A stretch of DNA of 23,282 nt, taken from positions 1 through 23,282 of the IMG/VR virus record IMGVR_UViG_3300028920_002860, one strand, 5' to 3'. The translations under genes and the position numbers were made by a program. Numbering within the stretch: position 1 is the first letter of the stretch; each line of letters starts with the position of its first letter. Below, piece by piece: positions 3,882-20,872 of this stretch. This DNA comes from a virus. The notes below the pieces were generated by a model, which saw only the letters and a program-made list of their open reading frames with translations, made no database searches and had not been told where the DNA came from.

Positions 3882-5702
3882 ATGGGAAGAAGGAAGGGAC
3901 GCACCGGGCGCATCCTCAAGATGCGCGTCCGCCCCGACGCCGCGGGCGGTCCGCTCGCCGCGGCCGCCAGCCCGTCGACCGACTACGAATCGGTCGACAT
4001 CAGGCGCGACGCCGACGGCCGGCAGATCGTCAAGGCCCTCGTGATCGGCGGCGACGAGGCGAAGCCCGGCGGCCCCGTCTCCCAGGTCATGCGCGAGGAC
4101 CCCTTCGAGCGGCTGACCGGGACGGGCGGCATCCTCGCCCCGCCGCTCAACCCGTCGCTGCTCTCGACCCTCTGGGAGAACAACTCCGACCTCGGCCCCT
4201 GCATCGCCGCGATGGCCGTGAATTGCGAGGCCTTCGGCCACCGCTACATCCCGCGCATCGAAGTCCGCCCCGACACGCCCGACGCGATCAAGAAGCAGAT
4301 CGAGGACGAGAAGCTGCTCCTCGACAACTTCTTCGAGAACTGCTGCATCGAGGCCGACTCCTTCACGGACCTCCGCGTCGTGAAGCGGCAGGACCTCGAG
4401 GCGGTGGGCTACGCGGCATGGGAGATGGTCGACACGACCGGCGGCGAGATCCTCGGGATGAACTACCTCCCCGCGCACACCCTCCGCGTCTCGTGCCTCG
4501 GCGACTACGTCGAGGCGCCGAGGAAGATGCTGGTGCGCCGCGAGGACGGGTCGATGGCCTACGTCGAGAAGACGATCTGGCGGCGCTTCCGCAAGTTCGT
4601 CCAGGTGCGCGGGTCGAAGATGCGGTGGTTCCGCGAGTGGGGCGACCCGCGCGAGATGGACGCCGAGACGGGCGAGTACTCGACGAAGCCGCTGCCGGCG
4701 ACGAGGCGCGCCAACGCCGTCCTCTACTTCTCGCTGCGCAACGCGCCCCGCACCCCCTACAGCCTGCCGCGCTACGCGGGCAACCTGCTCTCGATCTACG
4801 GCGGCCGCGCGACCGACGAGATCAACTACTTCACCTTCGAGAGCAACAACATCCCGTCGATGGTGATCACGGTCTCCAACGGCATCCTCTCGGACGGGTC
4901 GATCTCGCGCGTCAAGTCGTTCGTCGAGTCGCAGGTGAAGGGGCAGCGGAACTACTCCCGCTTCCTCGTGCTGGAGGCGGAGCCAGTGACCGAGGGGACG
5001 CGAGACCCCGGCCGCGTCGGCATCGATATCAAGCCGCTCACGAAGGAGCAGCGCGACGACGCTCTCTTCACCGAGTACCAGGACCGCGCGCGCTCCAAGA
5101 TCCGCCGCTCCTTCCGCCTGCCCGACCTCATCTTCGGCGACACGCCCGCGGCCGGCGGCGCGGTCGGCGCGATGGAGATCCTCCGCAAGCTGGTCGACGA
5201 GCAGGTCTTCCAGCCGGAGCGCGACCTCTTCGACGCGATCATGAACCGCCGCGTCCTCCCCGCGCTGGGCGTCGTCTACCTGCGCTTCGCGTCCAACACG
5301 CCGCAGACGACCGACAATAAGGATCTCGTCCGCGTCCTCGCGATGGCGGAGAAGTCGGGCGGCGCGACGCCGCGCATCGCCCGCGACATCCTCTCGCAGG
5401 CCTTCGGCCGCGACCTCGGCCGCGTCACCGAGGTCGAGCCCGACATCCCCTTCTCGCTGCAGGTCGCGCGGGCCGTGCAGAGCCAGGGCGACCCGAAGGC
5501 CGCGCTCTCCGTGCCCGGCACCAACGACCTCCGCCGCATGGGCGCGACGACGCGCGGCGAGCTGGGCCTCGATGTGGAGAAGGACGAGGACGGCGATCTG
5601 GAAATCCCGGGCGACGCGCATGTCGGCGAGGCGCTCCTCGCAGGACTCGTCGCCCTCCGGCAGAGGCTCTCGGCCGAGCGCGACCGACGCGACGACGACT
5701 AG
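3882..5702 (+). CDS. Portal protein (PBSX/P2-type capsid portal family)
   Basis: The portal is the ring at the unique capsid vertex through which DNA enters and leaves; it docks the terminase and later the neck. ATG 3882 follows AGGAAGGAC and starts 14 bp after the terL stop. The product is 606 aa. It has a basic N terminus, a central region typical of this portal family (the segment RYAGNLLSIYGG at about residues 300-311, followed by an FTFESNNIPSM-like stretch), and a helical stem and crown region with DLIFGDTPA. The C-terminal tail is acidic (ends DRRDDD). Identification rests on these family-like stretches, the length and the place between TerL and MuF. The MuF gene follows after 10 bp. 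The exact structural subfamily is uncertain. Confidence 0.85.
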   Translation: MGRRKGRTGRILKMRVRPDAAGGPLAAAASPSTDYESVDIRRDADGRQIVKALVIGGDEAKPGGPVSQVMREDPFERLTGTGGILAPPLNPSLLSTLWENNSDLGPCIAAMAVNCEAFGHRYIPRIEVRPDTPDAIKKQIEDEKLLLDNFFENCCIEADSFTDLRVVKRQDLEAVGYAAWEMVDTTGGEILGMNYLPAHTLRVSCLGDYVEAPRKMLVRREDGSMAYVEKTIWRRFRKFVQVRGSKMRWFREWGDPREMDAETGEYSTKPLPATRRANAVLYFSLRNAPRTPYSLPRYAGNLLSIYGGRATDEINYFTFESNNIPSMVITVSNGILSDGSISRVKSFVESQVKGQRNYSRFLVLEAEPVTEGTRDPGRVGIDIKPLTKEQRDDALFTEYQDRARSKIRRSFRLPDLIFGDTPAAGGAVGAMEILRKLVDEQVFQPERDLFDAIMNRRVLPALGVVYLRFASNTPQTTDNKDLVRVLAMAEKSGGATPRIARDILSQAFGRDLGRVTEVEPDIPFSLQVARAVQSQGDPKAALSVPGTNDLRRMGATTRGELGLDVEKDEDGDLEIPGDAHVGEALLAGLVALRQRLSAERDRRDDD

Positions 5703-5712
5703 GATCTGAAGG

Positions 5713-8700
5713 ATGGGCGGAGAAGCCCGCCAGCTCCCGTTGACCGACGAGGTCCTCTCCGGCATGACCGACGAGCAGGTCGGCCTCGCGCTCGACGTCG
5801 TCGACGACATCCTCATCCGCGAGGGCGTGTTCAAGGCGGCCGAGGGCATCAACGCGATCCAACGCGACCTCGCCACGTCCTTCGGCCAGAAGTGGGGCTC
5901 GAAGGCGAAGGGCGTGATCTTCGAGGCCGCGCAGGCGCTCTCCGACGCGGGCCTCGGGATCATCTCGCAGGCCGACCTTGACGCGGTCCTCGACGGGATC
6001 GACGGCAAGATGAAAGGATACGGCTTCACGCCCGCGATGCAGTCGAAGGTCCGTAAGGCCGCGGGCGTCGCCATCAGCCTCGCGATGAAGGGCGCGCTCG
6101 AGGAGTCGAAACTCGACGTCCCCTCGTCCTTCGCCCTCGTCGACAAGAAGGCGCTCAACGCGCTGACGAAGAACTACACGCATTGGGTCGACGGGTACTA
6201 CCACAGCAACGTCCGCGAGGCGCTCCGCGTCGGCGCGTCCGAGGCCATCGTGAAGGAAGGCCTCGCGGGGCGCGACGCCGGGCGGCGGTTCAAGGAGGTC
6301 GCCGACCACTACTTCAAGGGGAAGGCCGGGCCGGCGCCGGGGCTGCCCGCCTCGCTCTCGGTCCCAAAGTCCTACCACGGGACGGCCGACCAGTATTGGG
6401 ACGGCCTCGCCAACCATGTCGCCTACCAGGGCAACGTCTTCGGCCGCATCGACGCCTTCAAGAAGATCGGCGTGACCAAGTACCGCATTGTCGCCGTCCT
6501 CGACCGACGGACGTCCGACATCTGCCGGATGATGCACGGCCAGGTCTTCACGATCGAGCAGGCGCAGCCGAACCTCGACGCCTGGATGAGCGACACGCCG
6601 GCGGACGTGAAGGATGCGGCAGGATGGCAGAAGGGTCCGGCCCTCGCGAAGGAGATCGGCCTGTCGGGCTACAAGCCCGGCGCGACGACGCCGAGCATGA
6701 CGCCGGCGCAGCTCAACACGATCTCGTCCAAGGGCCTCGCGCTCCCGCCCTACCACTTCCGCTGCCGCACCGATGTCGACATCGAGGAGCAGGTCGAGGA
6801 CCTGCCCTTCATCCCCGGCGAGAAGCCGCCGAAGAAGCCCGCGCCTGCGAAGCCCAAGCCGAAGGAGCCCAAGAAGCCGCCAGCCGCGAAACCGAAGCCG
6901 AAGCCCGTGCCGAAGCCTCCCGCGCCGAAGGCTCCGACGCCGATCCCGTCGAAGCCGAAGCCCGGCGCGAAGAAGCCCGACATCAAGCCCGCGCAGCCGA
7001 CGCCGGAGTCGAGGACCCCCAAGGAGTTCCCCTGGGCGGAGGACCAGCTCACCGAGGTCAAGCGCGGCGCGAAGGGGATGCACGAAAAGCAGTTCTTCAA
7101 GGACCCCGACGGCAACGAGTGGATGTTCAAGCCCGCGCCCGGCGGCAAGGACTTCCGCGCCAACGTCGAGTCCATCGCGTCCGAGGCGGCGAAGCGGCTG
7201 GGCCTCGACTCGGCCGACGTCTTCCTGGTCAAGCACCGCGGCAGGACCGGCACGATGCACCGCATGTTCAAGGCCGTGAAGAACGACGGCCTGGAGCGCG
7301 TCGGGATCGAGGGGCTGACGCAGCAGCAGGTCGAGGCGATGCAGCGGCAGCACGTCCTCGACTGGCTGATCGGGAACAACGACATGCACGCCGGCAACTT
7401 CATGGTGCTGAAGGACGGCACCCTCGTCGGCATCGACCGCGGGCAGGCCTTCCGCTACTTCGCGAAGGACCGCCTCGCGACCGACTACAACCCCAACGCG
7501 GGCTATGGAATCCGCGTGCTCTACAACGACCTCTTCGCCGCCGCGCAGAAGGGGAAGATGCCGAAGGGGCTGAAGCTGGTCGACCTCGACTCGGCGCCGA
7601 TGCGGAGGATGCTGGAGAAGGTCGCGTCCGTGTCGGACGATGAGTGGCTCGCGATGTGGAAGCCCTACATCGACGATGCGCTGAAGAACAAGAGCCTCGC
7701 CTTCGGGTCGCGCGCCAAGTTCGAGGCGGAGCTGCTGCGGCGGAAGAACTCGCTCGGCAAGGACCTCGACGAGTTCTACTCAAAAATCTTCAAGCGGCAG
7801 ACGCGCGAGGTCGCCGAGGCGCAGGCCCAGAAGGGCGCGCTCACGAAGGTCGACGCCAAGCTGGCGAGGAAGGTCGGGGAGTCGCAGAACCGCGGCGCGA
7901 CCGTCCTCGTCGCGACCGAGAAGGTCGAGAACGGCAACCTGCTCGTCTACCGCTACAAGGACGGGAGCACCGTCGTCGAGGGCAAGGTGCGCCGCTCGGC
8001 CGACGAGGTCGTCAAGCGCCGCCTCGTCGGCGAGGACGGGATGCGGAAGATGGCGGCGGACGCCGCCGACGCCGGAGGCGTCGACCCGGATTGGACCGCC
8101 ATCCTCAACCAGATCAAATCATTCAACTACCACCTCGGCCCCGGCGGCGACGGCGTGATCTCGAAGATCAAGCAGGACGCCTTCTTCTCGAAGCTGAATG
8201 CGCTGAAGAAGAAGATGACCGACCCGACGGCCACGCCGCAGAACAAGGCGAAGGCGAAATACTACCACGACATGCTCTCGAAGTACGGGACACAGAAGAA
8301 GGGCATCCACCTCGGCCCGAAGACGAAGAAGATGCTCGGCGTCAAGCAGGAGCCCTACACGCCGCCGAAGCCGAAGGAGACGCCGCAGCGGACGGGCGGC
8401 AAGTCGAGGCGCGTGAAGAAGTCGAACGTGCGGAAGATCGCCGAGGAGAAGCGGGCGCTGGAGAACGGCGAGATCGTCAACGAGACCGGCGGCGGCCTGA
8501 CAAGCGCGGGCCTTCGGACCGACGAGTTGAGGGAGATGATCGTCGCGGAGCTGGACGACGGCACGCGAATCTTCTACACGCCGCACGACAACCACCACAT
8601 GGGGCAGGCATACTCGAAGCAGGGCCGCTTCCGCATCGTCGTCCCGAAGGGGTCGAGGCCGCCCGGCGCGAAGGAGATCGAGAGGGCGCTCGACGCGCTC

Positions 8701-9507
8701 GAGGACATGGGCGTCGAGAAGAAGCTGATGACCCCGGACGACTTCGAGCTGCTCTACCTTCGGAAGAACGCGCACGCGATGGGGATCGCCGACGATCCCG
8801 TCTTCGCCAACATCTCGTCCGACCTGCCGGTGAAGAAGCAGGTCGAGAGGATGCTCGAGGGGTTCAAGAAGAAGATCGGGAAGGACCCGCGCAAGATGGC
8901 GGGCTACAACCCGAAGCCCGTCTTCTACGGCAAGGAGGGCGAGGGCATCGCGCGCTTCCAGCGGTTCGACTTCTCCGACGCCGACATCGCGAAGAGGAAG
9001 TTCACCATCATCCACGACCTCTACTCGTCCAGCCCCGGCGACTTCCTCCTCTCGCGCATCGACGACGGGACGCGGTGCCTCATCGCGACCGAGGAGAAGA
9101 TCAGGCGCGGCATCCCCCTCGCCGGCATGAGCCCCGGCGCCGACCAGAACACGGGCGGCGCGCAGTTCGTCTTCCTCCGCATCAGGAAGGGCGCGGCAAA
9201 GGGACGCCGTCGCATCCACCTGAAGAAGGCGCTGCTGCGCGACACCAACGCGGTCTCCTACAATGGGGACTACTTCGGCAACATGGAGCCGTCCTTCAAG
9301 GAAGCGCGCCGCGCGAAGACCGTGCCCGAGGCGCTGAAGATGACGTCCAGCAGCAACGAGACCTTGATCAAGAACGAGGTCCCGCTCGAGATGTGGGACC
9401 ATATCGACGTCGGCAGCGCCGCCGAGCGGACGCGCGTCCTCGGCGAGCTGCGCAAGCGCGGGATCAAGGAGATCGGCGGCACGCCGATCGAGGACTTCGT
9501 GAGGTAG
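5713..9507 (+). CDS. Giant MuF-type minor head protein with fused kinase-like domain
   Basis: This 1264-aa protein starts at ATG 5713 (AGGA at 5701-5704) and ends in tandem TAG stops. Residues 1-200 are helical. Residues about 200-360 carry the Mu gpF minor-head signature: DRRTSDIC (264-271) and, after a spacer, PPYHFRCR (ending at 352). A Lys/Pro-rich linker (about 365-435) follows. Residues about 440-650 look like a HipA/PI3-4-kinase-type kinase: Lys473 in WMFKP, GNNDMHAGN (D557, N562) and GIDRG (D575). A Lys-rich stretch follows, then an unassigned C-terminal region (about 930-1264). MuF proteins sit at the portal, usually at 300-500 aa, and some carry C-terminal toxins delivered by phage. 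Here the extra domains may be packaged and injected. The MuF assignment is firm, the kinase fold likely, the C-terminal function unknown. Confidence 0.85.
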   Translation: MGGEARQLPLTDEVLSGMTDEQVGLALDVVDDILIREGVFKAAEGINAIQRDLATSFGQKWGSKAKGVIFEAAQALSDAGLGIISQADLDAVLDGIDGKMKGYGFTPAMQSKVRKAAGVAISLAMKGALEESKLDVPSSFALVDKKALNALTKNYTHWVDGYYHSNVREALRVGASEAIVKEGLAGRDAGRRFKEVADHYFKGKAGPAPGLPASLSVPKSYHGTADQYWDGLANHVAYQGNVFGRIDAFKKIGVTKYRIVAVLDRRTSDICRMMHGQVFTIEQAQPNLDAWMSDTPADVKDAAGWQKGPALAKEIGLSGYKPGATTPSMTPAQLNTISSKGLALPPYHFRCRTDVDIEEQVEDLPFIPGEKPPKKPAPAKPKPKEPKKPPAAKPKPKPVPKPPAPKAPTPIPSKPKPGAKKPDIKPAQPTPESRTPKEFPWAEDQLTEVKRGAKGMHEKQFFKDPDGNEWMFKPAPGGKDFRANVESIASEAAKRLGLDSADVFLVKHRGRTGTMHRMFKAVKNDGLERVGIEGLTQQQVEAMQRQHVLDWLIGNNDMHAGNFMVLKDGTLVGIDRGQAFRYFAKDRLATDYNPNAGYGIRVLYNDLFAAAQKGKMPKGLKLVDLDSAPMRRMLEKVASVSDDEWLAMWKPYIDDALKNKSLAFGSRAKFEAELLRRKNSLGKDLDEFYSKIFKRQTREVAEAQAQKGALTKVDAKLARKVGESQNRGATVLVATEKVENGNLLVYRYKDGSTVVEGKVRRSADEVVKRRLVGEDGMRKMAADAADAGGVDPDWTAILNQIKSFNYHLGPGGDGVISKIKQDAFFSKLNALKKKMTDPTATPQNKAKAKYYHDMLSKYGTQKKGIHLGPKTKKMLGVKQEPYTPPKPKETPQRTGGKSRRVKKSNVRKIAEEKRALENGEIVNETGGGLTSAGLRTDELREMIVAELDDGTRIFYTPHDNHHMGQAYSKQGRFRIVVPKGSRPPGAKEIERALDALEDMGVEKKLMTPDDFELLYLRKNAHAMGIADDPVFANISSDLPVKKQVERMLEGFKKKIGKDPRKMAGYNPKPVFYGKEGEGIARFQRFDFSDADIAKRKFTIIHDLYSSSPGDFLLSRIDDGTRCLIATEEKIRRGIPLAGMSPGADQNTGGAQFVFLRIRKGAAKGRRRIHLKKALLRDTNAVSYNGDYFGNMEPSFKEARRAKTVPEALKMTSSSNETLIKNEVPLEMWDHIDVGSAAERTRVLGELRKRGIKEIGGTPIEDFVR
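7030..7662 (+). other. Kinase-like domain within the MuF protein (residues about 440-650)
   Basis: The order of elements is that of HipA-like and PI3/4-kinase-like enzymes: an ATP-binding Lys473 in a beta strand, a Glu-containing helix (ESIASEAAKRLGL), a catalytic loop GNNDMHAGNF with D557 and N562, and a metal-binding Asp (D575) in GIDRG. All expected catalytic residues are present, so activity is plausible. The substrate, protein or otherwise, cannot be read from the sequence. Confidence 0.65.
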
Positions 9508-10290: not shown

Positions 10291-13200
10291 ATGAGGATCA
10301 AGGACATCAGCCCGGACGCCCTGCGCCGGGTCGACGACCGCGAGCTGCTCTCGCTGCACCTCCGCACCCATCAGCTCCACGGCGCCCACTTCGCCGACGA
10401 CGCGCCGAAGGGCCGGGGCCTGCGCGACGACAAGGGCGCCGAGGCGAAGGACGGCATCCTCGTCGCGGACAACGACGCGATCCTCGACGCCTGGAAGGGC
10501 AAGCGCGAGACGCTGCCGCTCAAGGCCGCGCCCAAAGGCGACGGCCGCACCTTCATCCTGGTCTCGCCGTCCCTGGCCTACGGCGTCGTCCGCCTCGGCG
10601 ACGAGAAGGACGGCGAGTGGCCGATCCTCTTCCTCAACCCCTTCGATGTCCCGCTCCCCTACGCGAGCGGCAAGGTCGACGGGGCCGTCGTCCCCGACAT
10701 CGACCTCGAGGGCGACGGCGCGCCGATGTCGCTCGAGGACCTCGTCCACGCGCACCTCTTCGTCGTCGAGGAGATGCTGCGTCGGGAGATCAGGCACAAG
10801 CGCGTGTCCGACCTCGACGACGAGGAGCTGCCCGACGGGACCAAGGCACCGGTCGTCAAGTTCGCGTGCCCCGACCCGGACAGCATGCCGAACGTCGTCA
10901 CGAAGGCCGGCGACGTCGCGGCCGCCCTCAAGCCGCGCGCCGGGCAGGCGGTCGACATCTTCTGCGGCATGGGCGCCCTGTCCATCGCCGCCGCGGCCGA
11001 AGGCTTCCACTCGACGCTCGCCGTCGAGAACGAGCCGCTCGCCGCGACGTCCTACGCGACCAACCACCCGCGGACGACCGTATTCCACGGAGATGTCCGC
11101 CAGCTCAACGCGGCCGACCTGGCCAAGGCGCTCGGGCCGGTCGACCTCGTCTGCGGCGGCGTCCCCTGCGAGCCCTTCTCGACCATCGGCGCGAAGGACC
11201 CGACCGACGGGCGGCGCGGCCTGATCAAGGTCGCGGTGAAGTTCGTCAAGGCGATGCGCCCGCGATACTTCCTCTTCGAGAACGTGCCGCAGGCGATGAA
11301 GGCCGACGGCTGGGCGACTGCGAGGAAGGCGCTGCAGCGCGAGGGATACGCGACCGACTTCTGGGTCGTGACGCACAACGAGGTCGGCGGAGGCACGGCG
11401 CGCAAGCGCGTCTTCTTCGTCGGCGTCCGCGGCGGCGAGCTGCCGTCGCTCGACGACCTGCCGCGCTCGAAGTCGGCCGGGTTCAAGGCCGCGCTCAAGG
11501 GCATCACCTCGCCGCCGAAGGGCGAGAACAAGGCCGACCCGATCCACGTCCATCCCGGTCCGCTCCAGCCGCACGCCGTCCGCAACGTCGCGCAGGTCCG
11601 CGCCGGCGGCAAGCCGACGGCGACCTGGAACGTGCGGCCGACGCCGCCGCAGGACCCCGCGCCGACCCTGCTCTCGCAGGCCGACAACCTGCACTGGTCG
11701 GCGAAGCGCCTGCTCACCGGCCGGGAGATGGCGACCCTCCACGAGATCCCGAGGTCCTACCGCTTCGTCAACTCGACCAGGAGCGGCGTCCGCAAGCTGG
11801 TCGGCGACTGCGTCCCGATCCGCCTCGGCCGCGCGGTCCTCGGCCACCTGAAGAAGGCGCAGGCGGAACGGGACCGCGAGCGCGGGCCGGTCGCGAAGGG
11901 CCTCCGCGCCGTCGACCTGGCCGACTTCAAGAACGTCGTCCACGAGGCGAAGGACGTGTGGAAGGTCGCGACGCCGAGGCCGCGCGCCGTCGACCTGTTC
12001 AGCGGGATGGGCGGGTTCTCCCTCGGCGCGTCCGCGGCGGGCTTCGACACCGTCCTCTCCGTCGAGTGCGACGAGCGGGCCGCGGCGACCTTCGCGGAGA
12101 ACCACGCCGGGGCGCCGGTCCTCCAGGCCGATATCAGGAAGATCGACCCGAAGGAGATCGCGCGAAGGGTCGGAAGGATCGACCTCGTGATCGGCGGCGT
12201 GCCGTGCGAGGCGTTCTCGCCGCTCGGCCGCGGCACCGCGCCGGAGCAGCGGAAGGCCGGCGTCGGCCCGGCCCACATGCAGGACAAGAAGCGCGAGAAG
12301 ACCGGGCGACGCGACCTTGTCAAGGTAGCCGTGAAGTGGGTCGAGGCGCTGCGCCCGAAGTTCGTCGCCTTCGAGAACGTGCCCGAGGCCGCCGATTCCG
12401 GCGAGTGGGACGCGGCGGTCAAGTCCCTCAAGCGCGCCGGATACGACGCGACGATCTGGGTCATGCGCGACGAGCAGGTCGGCGGGGCGACGAAGCGGAA
12501 GCGCGCCTTCCTCGTCGCGAAGCGCGACGGCGCGCTCCCCTCCCTCGACGACATCCCGCGACGCAAGGCGACCGCGTGCGGCTCGATCCTCTCGAAGTTC
12601 GCCAGCCCGCCGCAGGGGTCCAACCACGCCGACCCGCTCCACGTCCATCCCGGCCCGCTGACCGACATCGCGAGGCGGAACATCGCGGCCTCCGACCGCG
12701 GCGAGGCTCCGAAGGCCGGATGGGCGATCCGCCCGTTCTCCGCCGACGGCCCCGCGCCGACGATCACGTCGGGCAACGACGTGATCCACCCGAACCGCAA
12801 GCGATACCTCACGGGCCGCGAGATCGCCGCCCTGCACGGCGTGCCGAAGTCCTACCGCTTCCCCGCGTCGACGACCAGGACGGGCGTCCGCGACCTCGTC
12901 GGCGACTCCGTCCCGGTGCCGCTCGGCCGCGCCGTCCTCTCGCACCTCTCCTCCGGCCGCGCGACGAAGTCGGTCGTCGGCCCCATGCCCGCCAACCTCG
13001 TCGAGGACATCGGCGATGTGAAGCGCGTGGAGACGTCGAGGCCACGCGTCGTCGACCTCTTCTCCGGCATGGGCGGCTACTCGCTCGGCGCCCGCGCCGC
13101 CGGATTCGAGACGGTCCTCGCCGTCGAGCACGAGAAGCACGCGGCGGCGACCTTCGCCGCCAACCACGGCGGCACGCCCGTCTTCTTCGGCGACATCCAG

Positions 13201-16200
13201 AAGGTCGACCCGAAGGAGGCGCGCAAGCGCGTCGGCCCGGTCGAGATGATGATCGGCGGCGTGCCGTGCGAGCCCTACTCCTCGTCGGGCCGCGGGTCGG
13301 CCCCGGAGCAGCGCAACGACGGCGGCCGCGTCTTCGGGCGCCGCGGCCTCGTCAAGGTCGCGGTCTCCTGGGTCGAGGCGTTCTCCCCCAAGTTCGTCGC
13401 CTTCGAGAACGTCCCGCTCGCCGCCGACTCCCCCGAGTGGAAGGCCGCGCTGAAGTCGCTGGCCGGGATGGGCTACAGCGCCACCATCTGGGTCGTGCGC
13501 GACGATCAGGTCGGCGGGGCGACGACACGCAAGCGCGCCTTCCTCGTCGCGTCCAAGGGCAAGCTGCCCGACCTGGACGCGATCCCGAGACGCAAGGCCA
13601 GGACGGTGAAAGACGTCCTCGCGGCCCTTCCGTCCGTCGGCAGCGGCGACCCGCTGCACGTCGCCCACGGGACGGTCTCGGAGCGGAGGCTGAAGGGCAT
13701 CCGCGCGCAGCTCGACGGCAAGAAGATCCCAGGCTTCTTCCACGAGGGCGTGAACAAGATGGATGAGCCGGCGCACCCGATCATCGCCAGCCGGCAGTCG
13801 ATCCACCCGAGCCTCAAGCGGCACTTCACGCCGCGCGAGGTCCTGACCATGCACGGGGTCCCGAAGTCCTATCGCTTCCCCGTCAACATCGGGACCGTGC
13901 CGTCGCTCGTCGGCGACTCCGTCCCGGTCGCGCTCGGGTCGGCGATCATCAACCACCTCACCGGCCGCGCGCGGAAGGACGAGGAGGCCGACTGGCTGGG
14001 CGACGCGACGGACGCGATCCTTCCCGAGATCCTTGCCGACGAGATTGTCGGCGTCGACCTCGAGGGCTTCGAGGACATCGCGAAGGAGCACGCCGGCCCC
14101 GGCGGGTTCTCGGTCAAGATCGACCCGACCGACCTCCCCAACGTGATCACGAAGCAGGAGCAGCTCCGCAAGGACGCGGGCGGCGGCAAGCGCGTCGTCG
14201 ACCTGTTCTCCGGTCTCGGGGCCTACTCGCTCGGGGCGCACGCCGCGGGCTACCGGACCGCGCTCGCCGTCGAGCTGGAGCCGACGGCCGCGGCGACCTT
14301 CGCGACGAACAACCCGCGGTCGCAAGTCTACTTCGGCGACGTCCGCAAGCTGGACCCCCGCGCGGTCCGCGACAAGATCGGCAAGGTCGACCTCGTGATC
14401 GGCGGCGTGCCCTGCGAGCCCTTCTCGTCCGCCGGCAATTCCAGGGTGGATCAGCAGAACGACCCGCGCCGTGGTCTGGTCGGGATCGCGGCCAAGTTCG
14501 TCGAGGCGCTCGAGCCCGACTTCTTCGCCTTCGAGAACGTGCCCCAGGCCGCGAAGTCGTCCGAGTGGGGCCGCGCCCTCAAGCGGCTCAAGCGCGGCGG
14601 CTACGAGGTCGCGATCTGGAAGGTGTCGCACGACGAGGTCGGCGGCGCGACGAAGCGCAAGCGGGCCTTCATGGTGGGCGGCAAGAACGGCCTCCCATCG
14701 CTCGACGACCTCGGGCGGAAGTCTGCGACGCCGTGCGGCGAGGCGCTCAAGGGACTCGGCAACCCGCCGTCGAGGGAGAACCCGAGCGACCCGCTGCACG
14801 CGGTCCCGTACCCGCTGCGACCGAACGCCATCCGCAACATCGCCTACATGAAGGCCAACCCCAAGGCGACCGCGCCGCCGAGCATGTGGGCGGTCCGCCC
14901 CGTCGACTCGCGGCAGCCGTTCTTCACGATCGTCGGGATGGTCGACATGCTGCATCCGAGCAGCCGCCGCTACCTGACCGCGCGAGAGGCCGCGACGCTG
15001 CACGACATCCCGAAGTCCTACCGCTTCCCCGACACGCGGCACATCGCTGTCCGCACGCTGATCGGCGACTCGGTCCCGGTCGCGCTCGGCACCGCGGTCC
15101 TCAAGCACCTCACCTCCGCGAAGGTCGCGAAGGGCGAGGGCGTCGACCGCGACGAGGTCATCCGCTGCATCGAGGAGGCTGGCGAGTTCGTCGTCGTCCG
15201 CGACTTCGTCTCGCTGGTCGGGTCGGTCGTGACCGCGCCCGAGGGCCGGCCCGCAAAGGACGTCGACCTCGTCGTGCGCGACGACGTCCCCGACTCCTCG
15301 GTCGAGCTGAAGCTGCGCCGTCTCTTCCCTCCGGCCATCCGCAGCAAGGTCCATATGGTATGGGACGCGAAGGGGCCAAACTGGGCCTACCTCCCGTTCT
15401 ACGACCTCGTGCTGCGGAAGCGCGACGAGCTCAAGGCGCAGGGCGTCGACGAGCCCGACTACAAGCCCTATGCGTCGGGGTCCGTCGAGAAGGCCGAGGC
15501 CGTCCGCCTGATGCGGCCGTTCGTCCCGCTCAAGGCGAGGACCGGATACCACCAGGGCGAGTTCTTCGCGGTCGACCCGCTGCTCGACCTGTGGGCCGCG
15601 CCCGCGTTCAAGCAGGGCAAGTCCGTCGCGGTGGAGCCGAAGTTCGACGGCGTCCGCCTGACCGTGCACAAGGACGGCGACCGCGTCGCGATTTTCACCG
15701 AGGACAAGAAGCGCGACCGCGCCGCCATCCTGCCCGACGTCGTCGAGGACGTGCGCAAGCTGAAGGATGAGAAGCTGATCCTCGACGGCGAGATGGTCTG
15801 GTGGAAGGACGGCAAGCCCATCGCCCGGCACGACATGATGAGGATCGTCGTGGGCAAGGACCCGCTCAAGGGCGAGGACCTGCGGCTCAACGCATTCGAC
15901 ATCCTCTGGCGCAACGACGACGGCCCTCTCGACCACATGCCGTGGGCCGCGCGGCAGGCGCAGCTCGAGGCCGCGCTGCCCGACGACACGAGGCACCTCA
16001 AGAGGGCGCGCCCGACCGTCGCCGGCAACCGTCGCGAGTTCCTCGCCGCGGTGAAGCGGGCGAGGGCCTACCCCGGCAGCGAGGGCGCGATGCTCAAGCT
16101 GACCGACGCGCCCTATGACCTCGACGGGCGGAGCGGCGCGTGGGCGAAGCTGAAGGACGTCTTCGAGCTGCAGGTCGTCGTGATCGGCGCGAAGAAGAAG

Positions 16201-18222
16201 ATCCCGTCGAAGGACGAGGACGCGGACTTCCGCAAGCAGCCGGGGCGGTGGTCCTACGACGGGATCAAGGACCCGTCCGCGTGGACCTACCGCGTCGCCT
16301 TCCTCGGGCCGCGCGGGAAGCTGATCCCGATCGAGGCCGACGAGACCTACACCGAGAGCGACCTCAAGCTGCGGTGGGTCGACAAGGGCGAGAAGGACCC
16401 CGTCACCGGCCAGGTCGCGAGCGAGAGCCAGTGGCGTGGGACCGACGACCCGCGGCTGTGGAAGATGGGCCGGGGCTTCGACGCGCGCAAGGCCGGAGAT
16501 GTCCAGTACGGCACGACCTACAACACCGGCATCGAGGCGAAGATCGGCGACGTGATCACGGTGACGCCCGTCTTGATGCGCGAGTTCTCCGGGCCGCAGG
16601 GCCGGCGCCGCTACTCGTGGACCTTCCCGATCGTCCGCGAGGCGACGCCGACCAGGGAGCGGCCCGACACCCTCGAGGATGTGCGGCGAATCGTCGCCGC
16701 CAGCTCCGAGCGGACGCCCGAGGACATGCCCGACGAGAAGGATGTGAAGGAGGTCGCGAAGTCGCGCGGCCGCCTCGGCATCAGCCGACTCCAGAAGCAG
16801 CGGCGCGGGCAGATCGATCCCGACGAGTCGACGAGGGACCAGGAGCGCGAGGCGGCGGAGCGCGCCGGCGGCGACCCCTACATGGTCCCGCAGAAGGGCA
16901 AGGCCGAGCAGCGGTTCGTCGCGCAGCTCCACTACCGCGGCTTCTGGTCGGAGGACGAGCGGGACCTCGTCCGCGAGGCGCTGAAGAAGGCGCGGGCCGA
17001 GGCGAAGGCCGGCGACCGTGCGGCGGCCAGGGAGATCCTCGACAACGCGTGGAAGGATCTTGGACCCGCGATCCTTCGCGTCCCGCTCGACGAGCTGAAG
17101 GCCGGGGCGCAGCGCGCCGAGGACGCGGGCGACGGCGACGTCTCCGCGGCGGTGCGCCGTGGCCTGGACACGCGGCCGCCGAAGGTCGACGACCTCGAGG
17201 GGATCGAGGGGCGCATCGTGAACCTCGGGAACGTCCACGCCGACCTGCGGATGAAGTCGCCCCTCGGCGAGTGGCTGATCGGCTGGACGCTGGACACGCC
17301 GAAGGTCGCGATCCAGACACTCGACGGCAAGGCGGTCCCGCTCCTGCGGAACAAGATCACGCACAACGAGGAGGGCGACAACATCGTCGCGCAGCGCAAG
17401 CTGGTCCAGCCCGTCGCGTGGCTTGACATCGTCTCGAAGGACAAGCCCGTGCACAGGACCGGCGCCGGCCAGGTCGGCGCGACGCCCGGGACGGCCGGCG
17501 AGTTCCACTACCTCGCGTCGGGGCGCGCCGTCTTCGGCGTCCAGAAGACCGACTACCACGAGGTCTTCCTCTTCCCCGAGGACGGCACCGACTGGGGCGG
17601 GCGCTGGGGTCTCCAGCTCATCGAGGGCCGGCCCGACTACCGCCGGGCGCGCGGCGAGTTCTGGATGGCGAACCGCCCGAAGGAGCAGTCGCCATACATC
17701 ACGACGCACGACGAGGAGAAGGAGAAGGACAAGGCGAAGCGCGAGAGGATCGACGTCGAGTGGAACACCGACACGGTCGAGGCGCTGCGCGCGAAGGGCT
17801 ACTCGCCGCTCGGCCCGGAGAAGGCGGCGAAGCGCGACGGGCGGAAGGTCCGCCTGCTCGTCCCCATCGCGAAGATCGCGAAGCAGGAGCGGTATGTCCT
17901 CGGCGTCGTGATGGAGCCGGACGCCGTCGACGCGCACGGCGAGGTCGCGGACGCGGCCGACATTCGACGCGCCGCCCACAATTTCCTTGTCAAAGGCGCA
18001 CAGATCGGTTATCAACATCAAGAGAAGCCAGGCGGACTGACACTCTTGGAGAGCTATCTTGCACCCGTCGAATTCAAGCTGGGCAACCGAACCGTCCCGA
18101 AGGGGACGTGGCTGATGGCGGTCCGCGTGAACAACGACAAGGTGTGGCAGGAGGTCCTCGACGGGAAGCTGACCGGCTTCTCGATCGAGGGCTACGCGAA
18201 GCGAGTGCCGGTCGCGGCGTAG
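10291..18222 (+). CDS. Giant polyprotein: four C5 DNA methyltransferases, nucleotidyltransferase, DNA ligase, 3'-phosphoesterase-like, XkdF protease
   Basis: The frame is unbroken for 2643 residues. ATG 10291 was chosen because AGGAGG (10276-10281) lies 9 nt upstream and the previous gene ends at 10277; the longer upstream frame overlaps both small genes. Order: N-terminal region with a His-rich LHLRTHQLHGAHF (about 1-215), methyltransferase units at about 219-520, 565-890, 919-1230 and 1300-1612, nucleotidyltransferase-like (1620-1720), ATP-dependent ligase (1765-2140), LigD-type phosphoesterase-like (2205-2480), XkdF protease (2527-2643). XkdF proteases mature phage capsids, and the place just before scaffold and capsid genes is the normal one. 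The protease may cut the chain so that the enzymes stay in the head. A fused polypeptide or self-processed parts are both possible. Codon use is uniform except for an AT-richer patch near the protease His. Confidence 0.9.
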   Translation: MRIKDISPDALRRVDDRELLSLHLRTHQLHGAHFADDAPKGRGLRDDKGAEAKDGILVADNDAILDAWKGKRETLPLKAAPKGDGRTFILVSPSLAYGVVRLGDEKDGEWPILFLNPFDVPLPYASGKVDGAVVPDIDLEGDGAPMSLEDLVHAHLFVVEEMLRREIRHKRVSDLDDEELPDGTKAPVVKFACPDPDSMPNVVTKAGDVAAALKPRAGQAVDIFCGMGALSIAAAAEGFHSTLAVENEPLAATSYATNHPRTTVFHGDVRQLNAADLAKALGPVDLVCGGVPCEPFSTIGAKDPTDGRRGLIKVAVKFVKAMRPRYFLFENVPQAMKADGWATARKALQREGYATDFWVVTHNEVGGGTARKRVFFVGVRGGELPSLDDLPRSKSAGFKAALKGITSPPKGENKADPIHVHPGPLQPHAVRNVAQVRAGGKPTATWNVRPTPPQDPAPTLLSQADNLHWSAKRLLTGREMATLHEIPRSYRFVNSTRSGVRKLVGDCVPIRLGRAVLGHLKKAQAERDRERGPVAKGLRAVDLADFKNVVHEAKDVWKVATPRPRAVDLFSGMGGFSLGASAAGFDTVLSVECDERAAATFAENHAGAPVLQADIRKIDPKEIARRVGRIDLVIGGVPCEAFSPLGRGTAPEQRKAGVGPAHMQDKKREKTGRRDLVKVAVKWVEALRPKFVAFENVPEAADSGEWDAAVKSLKRAGYDATIWVMRDEQVGGATKRKRAFLVAKRDGALPSLDDIPRRKATACGSILSKFASPPQGSNHADPLHVHPGPLTDIARRNIAASDRGEAPKAGWAIRPFSADGPAPTITSGNDVIHPNRKRYLTGREIAALHGVPKSYRFPASTTRTGVRDLVGDSVPVPLGRAVLSHLSSGRATKSVVGPMPANLVEDIGDVKRVETSRPRVVDLFSGMGGYSLGARAAGFETVLAVEHEKHAAATFAANHGGTPVFFGDIQKVDPKEARKRVGPVEMMIGGVPCEPYSSSGRGSAPEQRNDGGRVFGRRGLVKVAVSWVEAFSPKFVAFENVPLAADSPEWKAALKSLAGMGYSATIWVVRDDQVGGATTRKRAFLVASKGKLPDLDAIPRRKARTVKDVLAALPSVGSGDPLHVAHGTVSERRLKGIRAQLDGKKIPGFFHEGVNKMDEPAHPIIASRQSIHPSLKRHFTPREVLTMHGVPKSYRFPVNIGTVPSLVGDSVPVALGSAIINHLTGRARKDEEADWLGDATDAILPEILADEIVGVDLEGFEDIAKEHAGPGGFSVKIDPTDLPNVITKQEQLRKDAGGGKRVVDLFSGLGAYSLGAHAAGYRTALAVELEPTAAATFATNNPRSQVYFGDVRKLDPRAVRDKIGKVDLVIGGVPCEPFSSAGNSRVDQQNDPRRGLVGIAAKFVEALEPDFFAFENVPQAAKSSEWGRALKRLKRGGYEVAIWKVSHDEVGGATKRKRAFMVGGKNGLPSLDDLGRKSATPCGEALKGLGNPPSRENPSDPLHAVPYPLRPNAIRNIAYMKANPKATAPPSMWAVRPVDSRQPFFTIVGMVDMLHPSSRRYLTAREAATLHDIPKSYRFPDTRHIAVRTLIGDSVPVALGTAVLKHLTSAKVAKGEGVDRDEVIRCIEEAGEFVVVRDFVSLVGSVVTAPEGRPAKDVDLVVRDDVPDSSVELKLRRLFPPAIRSKVHMVWDAKGPNWAYLPFYDLVLRKRDELKAQGVDEPDYKPYASGSVEKAEAVRLMRPFVPLKARTGYHQGEFFAVDPLLDLWAAPAFKQGKSVAVEPKFDGVRLTVHKDGDRVAIFTEDKKRDRAAILPDVVEDVRKLKDEKLILDGEMVWWKDGKPIARHDMMRIVVGKDPLKGEDLRLNAFDILWRNDDGPLDHMPWAARQAQLEAALPDDTRHLKRARPTVAGNRREFLAAVKRARAYPGSEGAMLKLTDAPYDLDGRSGAWAKLKDVFELQVVVIGAKKKIPSKDEDADFRKQPGRWSYDGIKDPSAWTYRVAFLGPRGKLIPIEADETYTESDLKLRWVDKGEKDPVTGQVASESQWRGTDDPRLWKMGRGFDARKAGDVQYGTTYNTGIEAKIGDVITVTPVLMREFSGPQGRRRYSWTFPIVREATPTRERPDTLEDVRRIVAASSERTPEDMPDEKDVKEVAKSRGRLGISRLQKQRRGQIDPDESTRDQEREAAERAGGDPYMVPQKGKAEQRFVAQLHYRGFWSEDERDLVREALKKARAEAKAGDRAAAREILDNAWKDLGPAILRVPLDELKAGAQRAEDAGDGDVSAAVRRGLDTRPPKVDDLEGIEGRIVNLGNVHADLRMKSPLGEWLIGWTLDTPKVAIQTLDGKAVPLLRNKITHNEEGDNIVAQRKLVQPVAWLDIVSKDKPVHRTGAGQVGATPGTAGEFHYLASGRAVFGVQKTDYHEVFLFPEDGTDWGGRWGLQLIEGRPDYRRARGEFWMANRPKEQSPYITTHDEEKEKDKAKRERIDVEWNTDTVEALRAKGYSPLGPEKAAKRDGRKVRLLVPIAKIAKQERYVLGVVMEPDAVDAHGEVADAADIRRAAHNFLVKGAQIGYQHQEKPGGLTLLESYLAPVEFKLGNRTVPKGTWLMAVRVNNDKVWQEVLDGKLTGFSIEGYAKRVPVAA
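10945..11850 (+). other. Cytosine-C5 methyltransferase unit 1 (residues about 219-520)
   Basis: Motif I DIFCGMG (222-228) binds S-adenosylmethionine. Motif IV GGVPCEPFS contains the catalytic Cys293. Motif VI FENV (329-332) supplies Glu330. Motif VIII is VGGGTARKR (365-373). A short specificity region containing HVHPGPL follows, then motifs IX-X ending LVGDCVPIRLGRAVL. The unit is complete, so activity is plausible. It is preceded by PDSMPNVVTKAGDV, a linker whose relative occurs before unit 4. This copy lacks the longer insert after motif IV seen in units 2 and 3. Confidence 0.85.
11983..12960 (+). other. Cytosine-C5 methyltransferase unit 2 (residues about 565-890)
   Basis: DLFSGMGGFSLGA (from 568), GGVPCEAFS with Cys639, FENV (694-697), VGGATKRKR (to R738) and GDSVPVPLGRAVL (from 871) give a full set of C5-methyltransferase motifs. 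After motif IV comes GRGTAPEQRK and a charged insert (to about 670). It is closest to unit 3: both share GRG-APEQR and ATIWV-RD-QVGGAT. Confidence 0.87.
13045..13980 (+). other. Cytosine-C5 methyltransferase unit 3 (residues about 919-1230)
   Basis: DLFSGMGGYSLGA (from 922), GGVPCEPYS with Cys993, FENV (1038-1041), VGGATTRKR (to R1082) and LVGDSVPVALG (from 1206) are present. The specificity region differs clearly from the other units: it has SGDPLHVAHGTVSERR and a GFFHEGVNKMDEP stretch not seen elsewhere. That suggests a different target sequence. Confidence 0.87.
14188..15126 (+). other. Cytosine-C5 methyltransferase unit 4 (residues about 1300-1612)
   Basis: DLFSGLGAYSLGA (from 1304), GGVPCEPFSSAG with Cys1375, FENV (1414-1417), VGGATKRKR (to R1458) and LIGDSVPVALGTAVL (from 1590) are present. 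It is preceded by a longer acidic linker (about 1230-1300) that ends in DLPNVITKQEQL, resembling the linker before unit 1. The specificity region contains DPLHAVPYPLRPNAIRN, again different from the others. Confidence 0.87.
15148..15450 (+). other. Nucleotidyltransferase-like segment (residues about 1620-1720)
   Basis: The pattern LVGS (1642-1645) followed by KDVDLVV (1656-1662) resembles the GS...DxD core of the polymerase-beta-type nucleotidyltransferase superfamily. The segment is short, the spacing between GS and DxD is somewhat long, and a third catalytic acid is not obvious. It could be a reduced nucleotidyltransferase or a structural remnant. Confidence 0.45.
15583..16710 (+). other. 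ATP-dependent DNA ligase domain plus OB fold (residues about 1765-2140)
   Basis: The adenylation motif is VEPKFDGVRL with Lys1784 as the predicted AMP-accepting residue. LDGEMV (1831-1836), SEGAMLK (1930-1936) and WAKLK (1951-1955) match ligase motifs III, IV and V. An OB-type region follows (GDVITVTPVLMREF, then WTFPIVREATP). The whole covalent nucleotidyl-transfer core is intact. Such enzymes seal nicks in duplex DNA using ATP. Confidence 0.85.
16903..17730 (+). other. LigD-type 3'-phosphoesterase-like domain (residues about 2205-2480)
   Basis: VHADLRM (His2316, Asp2318, Arg2320) matches the HxDxR core of the LigD phosphoesterase, and EWLIGWTL follows as in that family. An earlier His2214 in VAQLHYRGF could be the first active-site His, but a charged helical insert of about 95 residues separates the two. 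Downstream, DYHEVFLF, GGRWGLQL and FWMANRPKEQSPY resemble the C-terminal half of such domains. In LigD this domain trims 3' ends before ligation. The assignment is by motif resemblance only. Confidence 0.5.
17869..18219 (+). other. XkdF-type phage serine protease domain (residues about 2527-2643)
   Basis: The segment starts RYVLGVVMEPDAVDAHGE, a form typical of XkdF-like maturation proteases. It carries a candidate catalytic His2576 in GYQHQ and Ser2631 in LTGFSIEGY near the C-terminal end. AHNFLVKG, LLESYLAP and GTWLMAVRVNNDKVWQ lie between and are also family-like. These proteases cleave scaffold and capsid components inside the prohead. The scaffold-like gene follows directly. Confidence 0.8.
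17987..18015 (+). promoter_or_regulatory. Intragenic sigma70-like promoter candidate before the scaffold and capsid genes
   Basis: TTGTCA (17987-17992, five of six), a 17-bp spacer and TATCAA (18010-18015, four of six) lie inside the protease-coding part, about 220 bp before the scaffold start. They sit in an unusually AT-rich stretch (17961-18075). This would allow the abundant scaffold and capsid proteins to be made in excess over the giant protein. Confidence 0.4.
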
Positions 18223-18235
18223 AGGGAGATCCCCG

Positions 18236-19600
18236 GTGGCCGATCCTGTCGACAAAAAGGCGAAGCGCAGACTCACCGACATCAACGTGACCAACGTCGA
18301 TCTGGTCGACCGGCCGGCCAACCAGGAAGAGTTCCTCGTCGTAAAGAGGAAGGACGGGAAGGAGGACCCCGACATGGACCCGAAGGATGAGAAGGTCGTC
18401 AAGGACGAGGAGAGCACCGTGGCCGAGGAGCTGACGGACGGCGGCGGGAGCGAGGACGCCCCCGACACCGACGAGTCCAAGGACGACGACGCCGAGGACG
18501 GCGACGGGTCCGACGACGCCGGGGGCGACGCCAAGGACGACGACGCCAAGGACGACGACGCCGAGGGCGACGACTCCGAGGGCGGCGATCCCGTGCAGAA
18601 GGCGGTCGACGCCGTCGAACGGTTCACGGGCGCGCTCAACGACTTCCTCGCCGGCCTGGAGAAGGGCGGCAAGAAGAAGACCGAGAAGGAGGAGGACGAG
18701 GACGGCCAGGTCGAGAAGGCGGACGGGATCGCGAAGCTGGCGAAGATGGTCTGCGACGAGGCGCGCAAGGTCCGCAAGATGAGCGACCTCCCCGAGCCCA
18801 TCGGCAAGGCGCTCGACGGCCTGATCAAGATGGCCGACGACGTCCTCGCCGCCGCGGAGAAGGCGGGCAAGTACCCCTACCCCGAGCCGGCCTCCGCGAA
18901 GAAGCAGGACGACGAGGACGAGGACGGCAAGGTCGAGAAGGCCGGCCGCATCCTGTCCGCGGCCAACATCAAGACCGTGAAGGACGCGCTCTCCGGCATG
19001 GGCAAGGCGCTCGAGCTGCTGGGCGGCATGGTCAAGCAGGTCGAGTCGCGCTACGCCGAGAAGGCCGAGGGCGAGGACGACGAGGACAAGGACGCCGAGG
19101 CCGCCGACAAGGGCGAGACCAAGAAGGGCATGTGCCCCGAGTGCGGCGCCCCGCTCTTCGGCAAGGCCGTGTGCAAGAAGTGCGGCGCGAAGATCGGCAA
19201 GGACGGCAAGGTCGCGAAGGCCGCGAAGGCGGACGACGAGGACGACGCCGGCAAGGCCGAGAAGCAGGACATGATGAAGTGCCCGCACTGCGGCGCGGAG
19301 ATCGAGGCGGGCCTCGACAAGTGCCCCGAGTGCGGCAAGGCCATCGAGATGGAGAAGGCCAAGGGCAAGAAGGACGACGACGCCGAGGCGACCGACAAGA
19401 AGATCCTCAAGGCCATCGAGAACCTCGCCGACAAGGTCGAGGCCCTCGGCAACCGCGTGACCAAGGCGGAGGCCGCGGTCGGGATCTCGAAGTCGCTGGG
19501 CGACGACGAGGAGGACGGCAACGGCGAGAAGCCGTCGCTGTGGTCCGGCCTGGGCCTCGTGCCGGGCGACGTCGCGACCGAGCGGCAGAGCAAGGACTGA
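18236..19600 (+). CDS. Acidic scaffold-like protein with two zinc ribbons
   Basis: GTG 18236 follows GAGGGAG (18222-18228), 13 bp after the protease stop. The 454-aa product opens with INVTNVDLVDRPANQEEFLVVKR, the sequence often found where XkdF-type proteases join their scaffold part. It continues with a very acidic Asp/Glu-rich tract (about 40-120) and helical segments. Two four-cysteine clusters are present: C300/C303 with C313/C316, and C349/C352 with C363/C366, each CxxC-x9-10-CxxC as in small zinc ribbons. A coiled coil (about 385-425) follows. It is probably an internal scaffold for capsid assembly and a substrate of the upstream protease. The ribbons are unusual for a scaffold and might bind nucleic acid or the packaged enzymes. 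Confidence 0.8.
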   Translation: MADPVDKKAKRRLTDINVTNVDLVDRPANQEEFLVVKRKDGKEDPDMDPKDEKVVKDEESTVAEELTDGGGSEDAPDTDESKDDDAEDGDGSDDAGGDAKDDDAKDDDAEGDDSEGGDPVQKAVDAVERFTGALNDFLAGLEKGGKKKTEKEEDEDGQVEKADGIAKLAKMVCDEARKVRKMSDLPEPIGKALDGLIKMADDVLAAAEKAGKYPYPEPASAKKQDDEDEDGKVEKAGRILSAANIKTVKDALSGMGKALELLGGMVKQVESRYAEKAEGEDDEDKDAEAADKGETKKGMCPECGAPLFGKAVCKKCGAKIGKDGKVAKAAKADDEDDAGKAEKQDMMKCPHCGAEIEAGLDKCPECGKAIEMEKAKGKKDDDAEATDKKILKAIENLADKVEALGNRVTKAEAAVGISKSLGDDEEDGNGEKPSLWSGLGLVPGDVATERQSKD

Positions 19601-19669: not shown

Positions 19670-20872
19670 ATGTCCGTGGACAACCAGGAGATCCTGCGAA
19701 AGGCCGTCATCACCACCGACTCGATGACCACCGCCGGACTGCTCAACCCCGAGCAGGCCGACAAGTTCATCGACTTCGTGTGGGACATCTGCAAGCTGAA
19801 GGGCAACGCCCGCACGCTGAAGTTCCGCCCCGAGGAGCTGCAGATCGACAAGATCGGCGTGGGCTCCCGCGCGGCGGTGCCGAAGGTCGAGGCGACCGAT
19901 CCCGGCGTGCGGCGCGGCATCACCACGAGCCGCGTGACCCTGCGGCCGTCCGAGGTGATGGTGCCCTTCGAGATCAGCTACACCGCGCTCGACGTGAACC
20001 TCGAGGGCGAGAAGCTGGCGGAGCACCTCGTCAAGATGTTCGCCACCCAGTTCGGCAACGACCTGGAGGAGCTGTACATCCAGGGCGACCAGCTCGGCGC
20101 GGCCATCCTCGAGAGCGACTACTTCGACGGCGGCGCGTCCGACAAGTACGTCAAGGACGGCTTCCTCGCGCTGCAGGACGGGTGGCTGACCCTCGCCCGC
20201 CAGGGCCACGGCGTCGACTTCGCCGGCGCCAACATCAGCAACCGCCTCTTCTCGCGGCTGCTGAACGCGCTGCCCGAGAAGTTCAAGCGCGACCGCACCA
20301 AGCTGCGGTTCTTCTGCTCCACCGACCTCGAGCAGAACTACCGCGAGAAGGTGGCGGCGAGGGCCACCGGCAAGGGCGATCAGGCGCTCATGTCCGAGAT
20401 GCCGCTGACGCCGTTCGGCGTCCCGCTGATCGGCGTGCCGCTCCTGCCCTTCCAGCCCAAGATCGTCGAGCACGTCGTGGTCAACACCGACGGGACCACC
20501 GCGACCGCCCTGCTCTACAAGGACCTCGCCAACGTGGTCGTGACCACCTCGACGCTCGGCGCCTCGCCGGAGTCGGCCTACACCGAGGGCGTGGACTACA
20601 CCCTCGACGCGGCCAACGGTACGATCACCCGCCTCGGCGGCGGCTCCATCCCGAGCGGCGGAACCGTCAAGGTCACCTACCAGGCCGAGGCCCAGGTGAT
20701 CTGCACCCACCAGGACAACTTCCTCGTCGGCATCGGCAAGGACGTCCGCATCGAGACCGACCGCGACATCTTCAAGTCCGTCCTCCAGTACGCGCTGACC
20801 GCCAAGGTGGCCTGCGAGTTCGAGGAGGCCGACGCGATCAGCTTCGGCTACAACATCGGCCTCGACGTCTAG
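19670..20872 (+). CDS. Major capsid protein, HK97-like fold
   Basis: ATG 19670 has the strongest ribosome binding region in the window. The 400-aa product is a typical capsid size and follows the scaffold. The N-terminal part (TTAGLLNPEQADKFIDFVWD) and a central ISYTALDVNLEGEKL stretch resemble capsid proteins of P2-like and related phages. An Ig-like or beta-rich insert appears near the C-terminal third (about 270-345), with the repeat-like YTEGVDYTLDAANGTITRL and GTVKVTYQ. The chain then returns to QDNFLVGIGKDVRIETDRDI, typical of the capsid axial domain. No N-terminal delta domain is evident, consistent with a separate scaffold. A hairpin-rich gap follows. Confidence 0.85.
   Translation: MSVDNQEILRKAVITTDSMTTAGLLNPEQADKFIDFVWDICKLKGNARTLKFRPEELQIDKIGVGSRAAVPKVEATDPGVRRGITTSRVTLRPSEVMVPFEISYTALDVNLEGEKLAEHLVKMFATQFGNDLEELYIQGDQLGAAILESDYFDGGASDKYVKDGFLALQDGWLTLARQGHGVDFAGANISNRLFSRLLNALPEKFKRDRTKLRFFCSTDLEQNYREKVAARATGKGDQALMSEMPLTPFGVPLIGVPLLPFQPKIVEHVVVNTDGTTATALLYKDLANVVVTTSTLGASPESAYTEGVDYTLDAANGTITRLGGGSIPSGGTVKVTYQAEAQVICTHQDNFLVGIGKDVRIETDRDIFKSVLQYALTAKVACEFEEADAISFGYNIGLDV

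Follow-up and report, generated by a model that had tools for sequence, protein, structure and literature searches.

A phage head-operon polyprotein joining four tandem C5-cytosine methyltransferases and a LigD-like repair set to an XkdF-type capsid protease

The head operon and its polyprotein gene

The window analyzed here (the whole stretch of 23,282 nucleotides, positions 1 to 23,282 of IMG/VR virus record IMGVR_UViG_3300028920_002860) contains a phage head operon in which one long gene is placed between the genes for a MuF-type minor head protein and those for the scaffold and major capsid protein (MCP; Table 1). The chain that it encodes comprises, in order, an N-terminal domain, four C5-cytosine methyltransferases, a putative nucleotidyltransferase (NTase), an ATP-dependent DNA ligase, a phosphoesterase (PE), and an XkdF-type protease, with domain bounds drawn from our own profiles, which were built on the polyprotein and its relatives. 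The XkdF domain sits 5' of the scaffold and MCP genes, the MCP being two genes on.

The reading frame of this gene remains open upstream of position 10291, back to 9706; the homologous residue is the start of a relative's protein (MKIKDISP) and matches the ATG at 10291. An antisense ORF of 2968 aa overlaps the gene and is longer than the sense ORF, so ORF length alone is no proof of a polyprotein gene. A chance ORF in GC-rich DNA is nonetheless ruled out by profile matches and codon bias (G+C at codon position 3 is ~0.96 in each segment of the sense frame 10291-18222), and the antisense ORF is a by-product.

Three neighboring genes have features of their own. The kinase region of the MuF protein (5713-9507) has GNNDMHAGN...DRG; this kinase part is kept in two large relative genomes (G006 and G007), and the copy in a third (G005) is a 424-aa ORF with the MuF part only. 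The protein at 18236-19600 has an N-terminal leader segment as in XkdF-type proteins, and its zinc ribbons are unusual for a scaffold. At the left end of the window, a minus-strand ORF (1-1644) looks by eye like a sliding clamp (DnaN-like), with no Pfam match.

Table 1. Features of the head operon and domains of the polyprotein
Feature	Position	Strand	Residues	Evidence or remarks
Terminase large subunit (TerL)	2200..3867	+		phrog_38 8.9e-75
Portal protein	3906..5702	+		phrog_12 8e-25
MuF-type minor head protein fused to HipA/PI3K-like kinase region	5713..9507	+		1264 aa
Polyprotein gene	10291..18222	+		2643 aa, no internal stop; ATG start, AGGAGG just 5'
N-terminal domain	10291..10824	+	1-178	partly helical
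C5-cytosine methyltransferase unit 1, Cys293	10930..11865	+	214-525	PF00145 2.7e-38; fold M.HaeIII Z 31.5
C5-cytosine methyltransferase unit 2, Cys639	11971..12963	+	561-891	PF00145 1.0e-41; alignment
C5-cytosine methyltransferase unit 3, Cys993	13033..13989	+	915-1233	PF00145 1.7e-37; most divergent target-recognition region
C5-cytosine methyltransferase unit 4, Cys1375	14179..15129	+	1297-1613	PF00145 2.7e-35 and 8.2e-9 (two pieces)
Putative Pol-beta-superfamily nucleotidyltransferase	15151..15480	+	1621-1730	GS, DxD, third Asp invariant in 12 sequences
ATP-dependent DNA ligase	15517..16644	+	1743-2118	PF01068 1.2e-22; K1784 in KFDG; LDGE, EG (SEG), WAKLK
LigD-type 3'-phosphoesterase	16873..17712	+	2195-2474	fold match; H2214, H2316-x-D-x-R, H2424 invariant
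XkdF-type capsid maturation protease	17860..18210	+	2524-2640	PF14550 4.3e-28; phrog_3017 head maturation protease 1.5e-35; His2576, Ser2631 invariant
Probable scaffold/assembly protein, two zinc ribbons	18236..19600	+		phrog_3017 positions 2-46 1.1e-9; Zn_ribbon_3 6.5e-8
Major capsid protein	19670..20872	+		phrog_1623 virion structural protein 1.1e-73

Methyltransferase units and repair modules

An earlier note, made from the sequence alone, had read four full sets of C5-methyltransferase motifs, ligase motifs, and a C-terminal XkdF protease in this single frame, and profile searches recover every one of them (PF00145 four times, PF01068, and PF14550; Table 1), although the note had overlooked the N-terminal domain, the NTase, and the LigD-type 3'-phosphoesterase. 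The multispecific C5 enzymes of SPR and phi3T combine one catalytic core with several target-recognition domains (TRDs). The polyprotein resembles them in that several cytosine specificities would come from one chain (inferred here), but it does not meet the one-core criterion: as the note had seen, the whole enzyme is repeated, i.e., four complete cores are present, each with its own TRD region. Neither of the outcomes that would have refuted the note came about, given that the copies diverge and independent relatives carry the fusion (a computational argument against an assembly artefact), and that the one unit modeled has the methyltransferase fold, the other three following by their identity to it.

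PF00145 scores above its cut-off in all four units (E 1.0e-41 to 2.7e-35), and the PC, ENV, VIII, and X motifs are all present in each. The four METHYLTRANSFERASES (i.e., the C5 units) share 41-58% identity in protein and 59-66% in DNA, a divergence that points to old duplications rather than an assembly echo and rules out assembly duplication as the source of the four copies. A model of the N-terminal domain with unit 1 (mean pLDDT 79, mostly >90 over unit 1) matches M.HaeIII (1dct; Z 31.5, 286 residues aligned), DNMT1 (31.3), and M.HhaI (29.6), i.e., unit 1 has a class I methyltransferase fold with a TRD, like M.HhaI and M.HaeIII. Unit 1 alone was modeled; the C5 fold of units 2-4 rests on the protein identity given above.

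The units differ most where targets would be recognized. Specifically, unit 3 is only 24-34% identical to its siblings in the target-recognition stretch (motifs VIII-IX) and 47-69% identical in the core, while units 1, 2, and 4 are 42-49% alike in that stretch. Since the target-recognition stretches diverge and the cores are kept, the units likely have several specificities (at least two, perhaps four), an inference for which we have the alignment only.

Relatives of the C5 units are few. In a phylogenetic tree with 12 other C5 enzymes, the four units and an enzyme from a 4.3-kb contig (L069) cluster together with good support (97/98), separate from the rest; the position of L069 inside this five-member group is unresolved, and a C5 methyltransferase on a 1.5-kb plasmid stretch (L103), obtained as a possible outgroup, was left out. 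The L069 enzyme begins directly after a portal gene and is cut off by the contig end, such that it may be a second example of a C5-type chain and cannot be counted as one. A C5 profile scan returned nothing but distant enzymes and L069, a single-sequence scan of IMG/VR returned no close relatives of unit 4, and among the chassis-bearing records (i.e., those with the NTase-ligase-phosphoesterase set) a C5 enzyme was present in the polyprotein's own contig alone. Four tandem C5 enzymes are known from this contig only so far. Two further observations concern L069: its C5 enzyme also has the PCE motif, and two genes before it a D12 methyltransferase and a MuF domain lie in one 578-aa ORF (L069:705-2438).

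The C5 fold is common to the unit 1 model and the carboxymethyltransferase CmoX (PMC12783734; 8yf3), and CmoX-type carboxymethylation was considered and rejected. The units lack SPPC and R350 (carboxy-SAM), having GGVPC and GD[S/C]VP, so that Asp stands in motif X where CmoX has Arg (position equivalence was set by motif X). Plain methyl transfer is the expected activity of the C5 units, as inferred from their motifs and without activity data.

Downstream of the C5 units lie the three modules of the chassis. The NTase domain has the Pol-beta-type pattern (G-S...D-x-D and a third Asp, in 12 sequences), with profile support limited to a weak PF01909 match (0.0084) in one relative (L052); its profile had no significant match among PDB sequences, and the chassis model is of low confidence over this domain. 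That C-terminal model (mean pLDDT 55) is poor outside the ligase and PE, and only those two were read from it. Fold comparison pairs the ligase with human ligase I/III/IV and with archaeal ligases (Z ~13-14), and the PE, at a pLDDT of mostly 70-90, matches the archaeal LigD-type phosphoesterases 3p43 (Z 14.8; 2.0 A over 123/124 residues) and 3n9b (Z 12.7). The PE is recognized by fold only, as Pfam gives no significant match for the domain and the PE-XkdF profile found nothing significant among PDB sequences. Its putative metal/phosphate ligands (H611, H713-x-D715-x-R717, and H820 in the numbering of the modeled segment) are invariant in nine chains and were assigned to known LigD residues by pattern, not superposition.

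Together these modules resemble bacterial LigD (POL-PE-LIG) in joining an ATP-dependent ligase and a 3'-phosphoesterase in one chain, but differ from it in their LIG-PE order, in a large PE insert, in the fusion to a capsid protease, and in the Pol-beta-type NTase that occupies the place of the primase-type POL. A scan of nine records, some of which are fragmentary, found no Ku (PF02735).

Relatives, exchanged modules, and known systems

The chassis extends well beyond this contig. A phosphoesterase plus XkdF profile found 41 loci in IMG/VR, and the NTase, ligase, phosphoesterase, and XkdF occur in a single ORF in 12 IMG/VR contigs besides the polyprotein's own. Among 50,697 phage records, the NTase-to-phosphoesterase query had one match, the "ATP-dependent DNA ligase" of ANMV-1 (AJP62006.1), in which the same trio is a single chain encoded immediately behind a portal-like gene; unlike in the polyprotein, neither XkdF nor a modification enzyme was detected in the ANMV-1 chain. 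Two scans of bacterial and archaeal species genomes found no chassis. The modules are spread over two ORFs in L033 (with the break between ligase and phosphoesterase) and in L012 (possibly through a frameshift), so fusion is not obligatory. Distant chassis proteins (L043:3226-6993 and L052:1217-5764) combine a uracil-DNA glycosylase and a small class I methyltransferase with NTase, ligase, and XkdF. The N-terminal domain has its own gene in two relatives, and several chassis proteins begin with it; a single-sequence scan of IMG/VR found no close relatives of it. Separately, metallo-beta-lactamase-fold domains (PF12706/PF13483) occur in the chassis relatives L013:6776-10555, L012:5180-7057, and L057:6065-10174; by analogy with ligase-associated exonucleases, these are possibly nucleases.

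A feature that the earlier note had missed, the exchange of modification modules, emerged from three large relatives (G005, G006, and G007). These are contigs of 107-113 kb, collinear around the head genes, with TerL 61-64% and MCP 69-77% identical. In the G006 chain, the NTase is flanked by a Dam-type methyltransferase on each side; no further D12 enzymes were found in the 107 kb of this contig. In G005 and G007, a TGT/DpdA-like domain opens the chassis chain (phrog_887, 5e-11 and 6e-12) and the N-terminal domain is encoded as a separate gene; between this N-terminal ORF and the TGT fusion lie QueE-FolE-QueC in G005 and QueE-FolE in G007, where QueC is found elsewhere in the record. Among the records tested, QueC and FolE occur in these two only. 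The modification part is thus a replaceable cassette: the slot that holds four C5 enzymes in the polyprotein holds two Dam-type enzymes or a 7-deazaguanine system in relatives. The 7-deazaguanine relatives share with phage DpdA/preQ0 systems a TGT-like domain accompanied by genes for QueE, FolE, and QueC, which mostly lie in this slot. At L026:6434-8464, QueE, FolE, and QueC lie inside the head operon of a collinear phage, between the N-terminal ORF and a TGT-NTase-ligase-phosphoesterase-XkdF chain.

Phage polyvalent proteins, including P1 DarB, are likewise giant multi-enzyme chains encoded next to virion genes, with DNA methylases among their domains (PMC5512222). With nine domains between the MuF and MCP genes, the polyprotein meets the definition used for them (a chain of 2-15 disparate domains whose gene lies close to those of the virion) and belongs to this broad theme. 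None of their hub domains MPTase, ArdC, SNF2, and ParB (PMC5512222) was detected in it, however, and it differs from them in that the carrier is a capsid protease and the C5 enzymes are four-fold. The survey itself (PMC5512222) contains no DNA ligase, no XkdF, and "cytosine" only in a reference, nor is a LigD-type phosphoesterase described there.

Fusions of an enzyme to XkdF as such are not new. A D12 methyltransferase is joined to a C-terminal XkdF domain in phrog_13242 (450 aa), as is a domain labeled "RNA ligase" in phrog_14859 (373 aa); in contrast to the polyprotein, these carry one enzyme each, without the four-fold C5 set and without the NTase-ligase-PE chassis. Literature searches on XkdF with ligase or methyltransferase found nothing relevant, and PHROGs hold only such partial fusions; the earlier note's failure to recognize the combination fits these outcomes. 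Three features are new: four complete C5 enzymes in a row, a capsid protease that bears a LigD-like repair chassis, and a slot at which modification systems are exchanged.

Some cultured phages have small XkdF proteins labeled "DNA methyltransferase"; these were also considered as earlier methyltransferase-XkdF fusions and rejected, as they have 150-212 aa only. The apparent source of the label is phrog_1530, which bears it and matched queries only in or beside XkdF; a 349-aa protein of Lactococcus phage 28201 consists of XkdF and a scaffold-like tail. Pseudomonas phage XkdF proteins of ~150 aa (L007:2932-3387 and L009:3950-4402) are among those annotated in this way.

A possible role in genome protection

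We propose, with moderate confidence, that the polyprotein protects the genome and that the phage has built it upon its head maturation protease; its delivery, cleavage, and activity are inferred. The late operon encodes the single chain, of which the XkdF part must, by inference, enter the procapsid, bringing the fused enzymes along; XkdF would then cleave itself and probably also set the modules free. The methyltransferases would mark several cytosine motifs on the phage genome, at packaging and/or after ejection, and such multi-motif marks could blind several restriction systems at once, while the phosphoesterase, NTase, and ligase would repair that DNA where it is nicked or its ends are blocked, and seal it.

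Capsid maturation proteases work inside the procapsid. Because XkdF is the only S78/S78_2 capsid protease recognized in the three large relative genomes, we infer that the fused enzymes probably get into the procapsid with it, unless they are cut off earlier. The best hint as to what the fusion is for comes from the 7-deazaguanine relatives: the DNA-acting enzymes are fused and the small-molecule preQ0 enzymes are not, which suggests that an enzyme is fused in order to reach the genome within or at the head. The timing of modification can be judged by analogy only, and the analogies diverge. Because the producing cell is where preQ0 is synthesized, the DpdA variant argues for modification at packaging, ahead of ejection, whereas the packaged P1 DarB methylase, which acts on injected DNA and protects it in cis (PMC5512222), would be a precedent for action after ejection. 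Several points count against the protection reading: the chassis modules can lie in separate ORFs, ANMV-1 has the chassis trio without a detected XkdF, the four-fold C5 form comes from one contig, and the records scanned for Ku showed none.

More tentatively, and short of calling it probable, we suggest that the polyprotein and its relatives form an undescribed class of virion-borne modification and end-repair polyproteins. In such a class the protease would be both delivery tag and releasing enzyme, the NTase, ligase, and 3'-phosphoesterase would be a conserved repair core, and base-modification systems (four C5 enzymes, two Dam enzymes, or a 7-deazaguanine transglycosylase, with a uracil-DNA glycosylase and methyltransferase in the distant members) would be exchanged as cassettes between related phages. 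Marking and mending of the genome would take place within the head or during exit from it.

A rival that we doubt, yet regard as a real possibility, confines modification to the producing cell: the enzymes would act late, no later than packaging, on DNA that has been replicated or is concatemeric; fusion would ensure only co-expression or placement at the portal, and the next cell would receive nothing functional. The placement of the cassette in the head operon, from MuF to scaffold/MCP, accords with this, as do the preQ0 genes of the DpdA-type relatives, which stand unfused in the same slot as the one fused, DNA-acting enzyme and thus fit modification where preQ0 arises. What this rival leaves unexplained is why a ligase, a phosphoesterase, and an NTase, useful for damaged or incoming DNA, should be the part that is conserved and should be tethered to the single protease required to enter the procapsid.

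It is improbable that the C5 units no longer transfer methyl groups and act as DNA-binding or packaging elements. The suspicion arises from deviations from consensus that are identical in all four units (PCE for PCQ in motif IV, TxRKR for QxRxR in VIII, and GD for GN in X), but the catalytic Cys, the ENV Glu, the SAM-binding motif, and both motif VIII Arg are invariant in the same four, and the Cys and ENV are kept in the partial L069 enzyme as well. Moreover, active enzymes are matched along their entire length by the unit model, and Dam-type enzymes with intact DPPY motifs fill the slot in relatives.

Still weaker is the idea that the enzymes target the host chromosome rather than phage DNA (e.g., provoking modification-dependent restriction or blocking host genes). 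We know of no 7-deazaguanine systems that serve as host-directed weapons. Phages commonly carry host-directed effectors in their virions (PMC5512222), but C5, Dam, and 7-deazaguanine enzymes with a ligase and phosphoesterase are the usual set to protect or mend phage DNA, and we consider a host target very improbable. Finally, an assembly or annotation artefact is scarcely credible even for a polyprotein known from one metagenome contig, given the DNA divergence of the C5 copies (repeat families are 64-85% alike), the intact frame and uniform codon bias, and the homologous fusions in independent contigs, with the same chassis in relatives from other metagenomes.

Phage DNA marking is thought to be done mostly by free-standing enzymes. 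In the phages described here, by contrast, unrelated modification systems are found, each physically joined, along with LigD-like modules for end repair, to the protease that has to enter the capsid. Should delivery prove real, these phages would protect and repair their genomes by means of virion-borne enzymes (the main precedent being P1 Dar), and a single genomic slot would predict the modification type of a phage. The polyprotein itself offers four natural C5 methyltransferases in one chain, probably of different specificities, and the occurrence of C5, Dam, and 7-deazaguanine systems in otherwise collinear phages provides a ready comparison of the effect of each mark.
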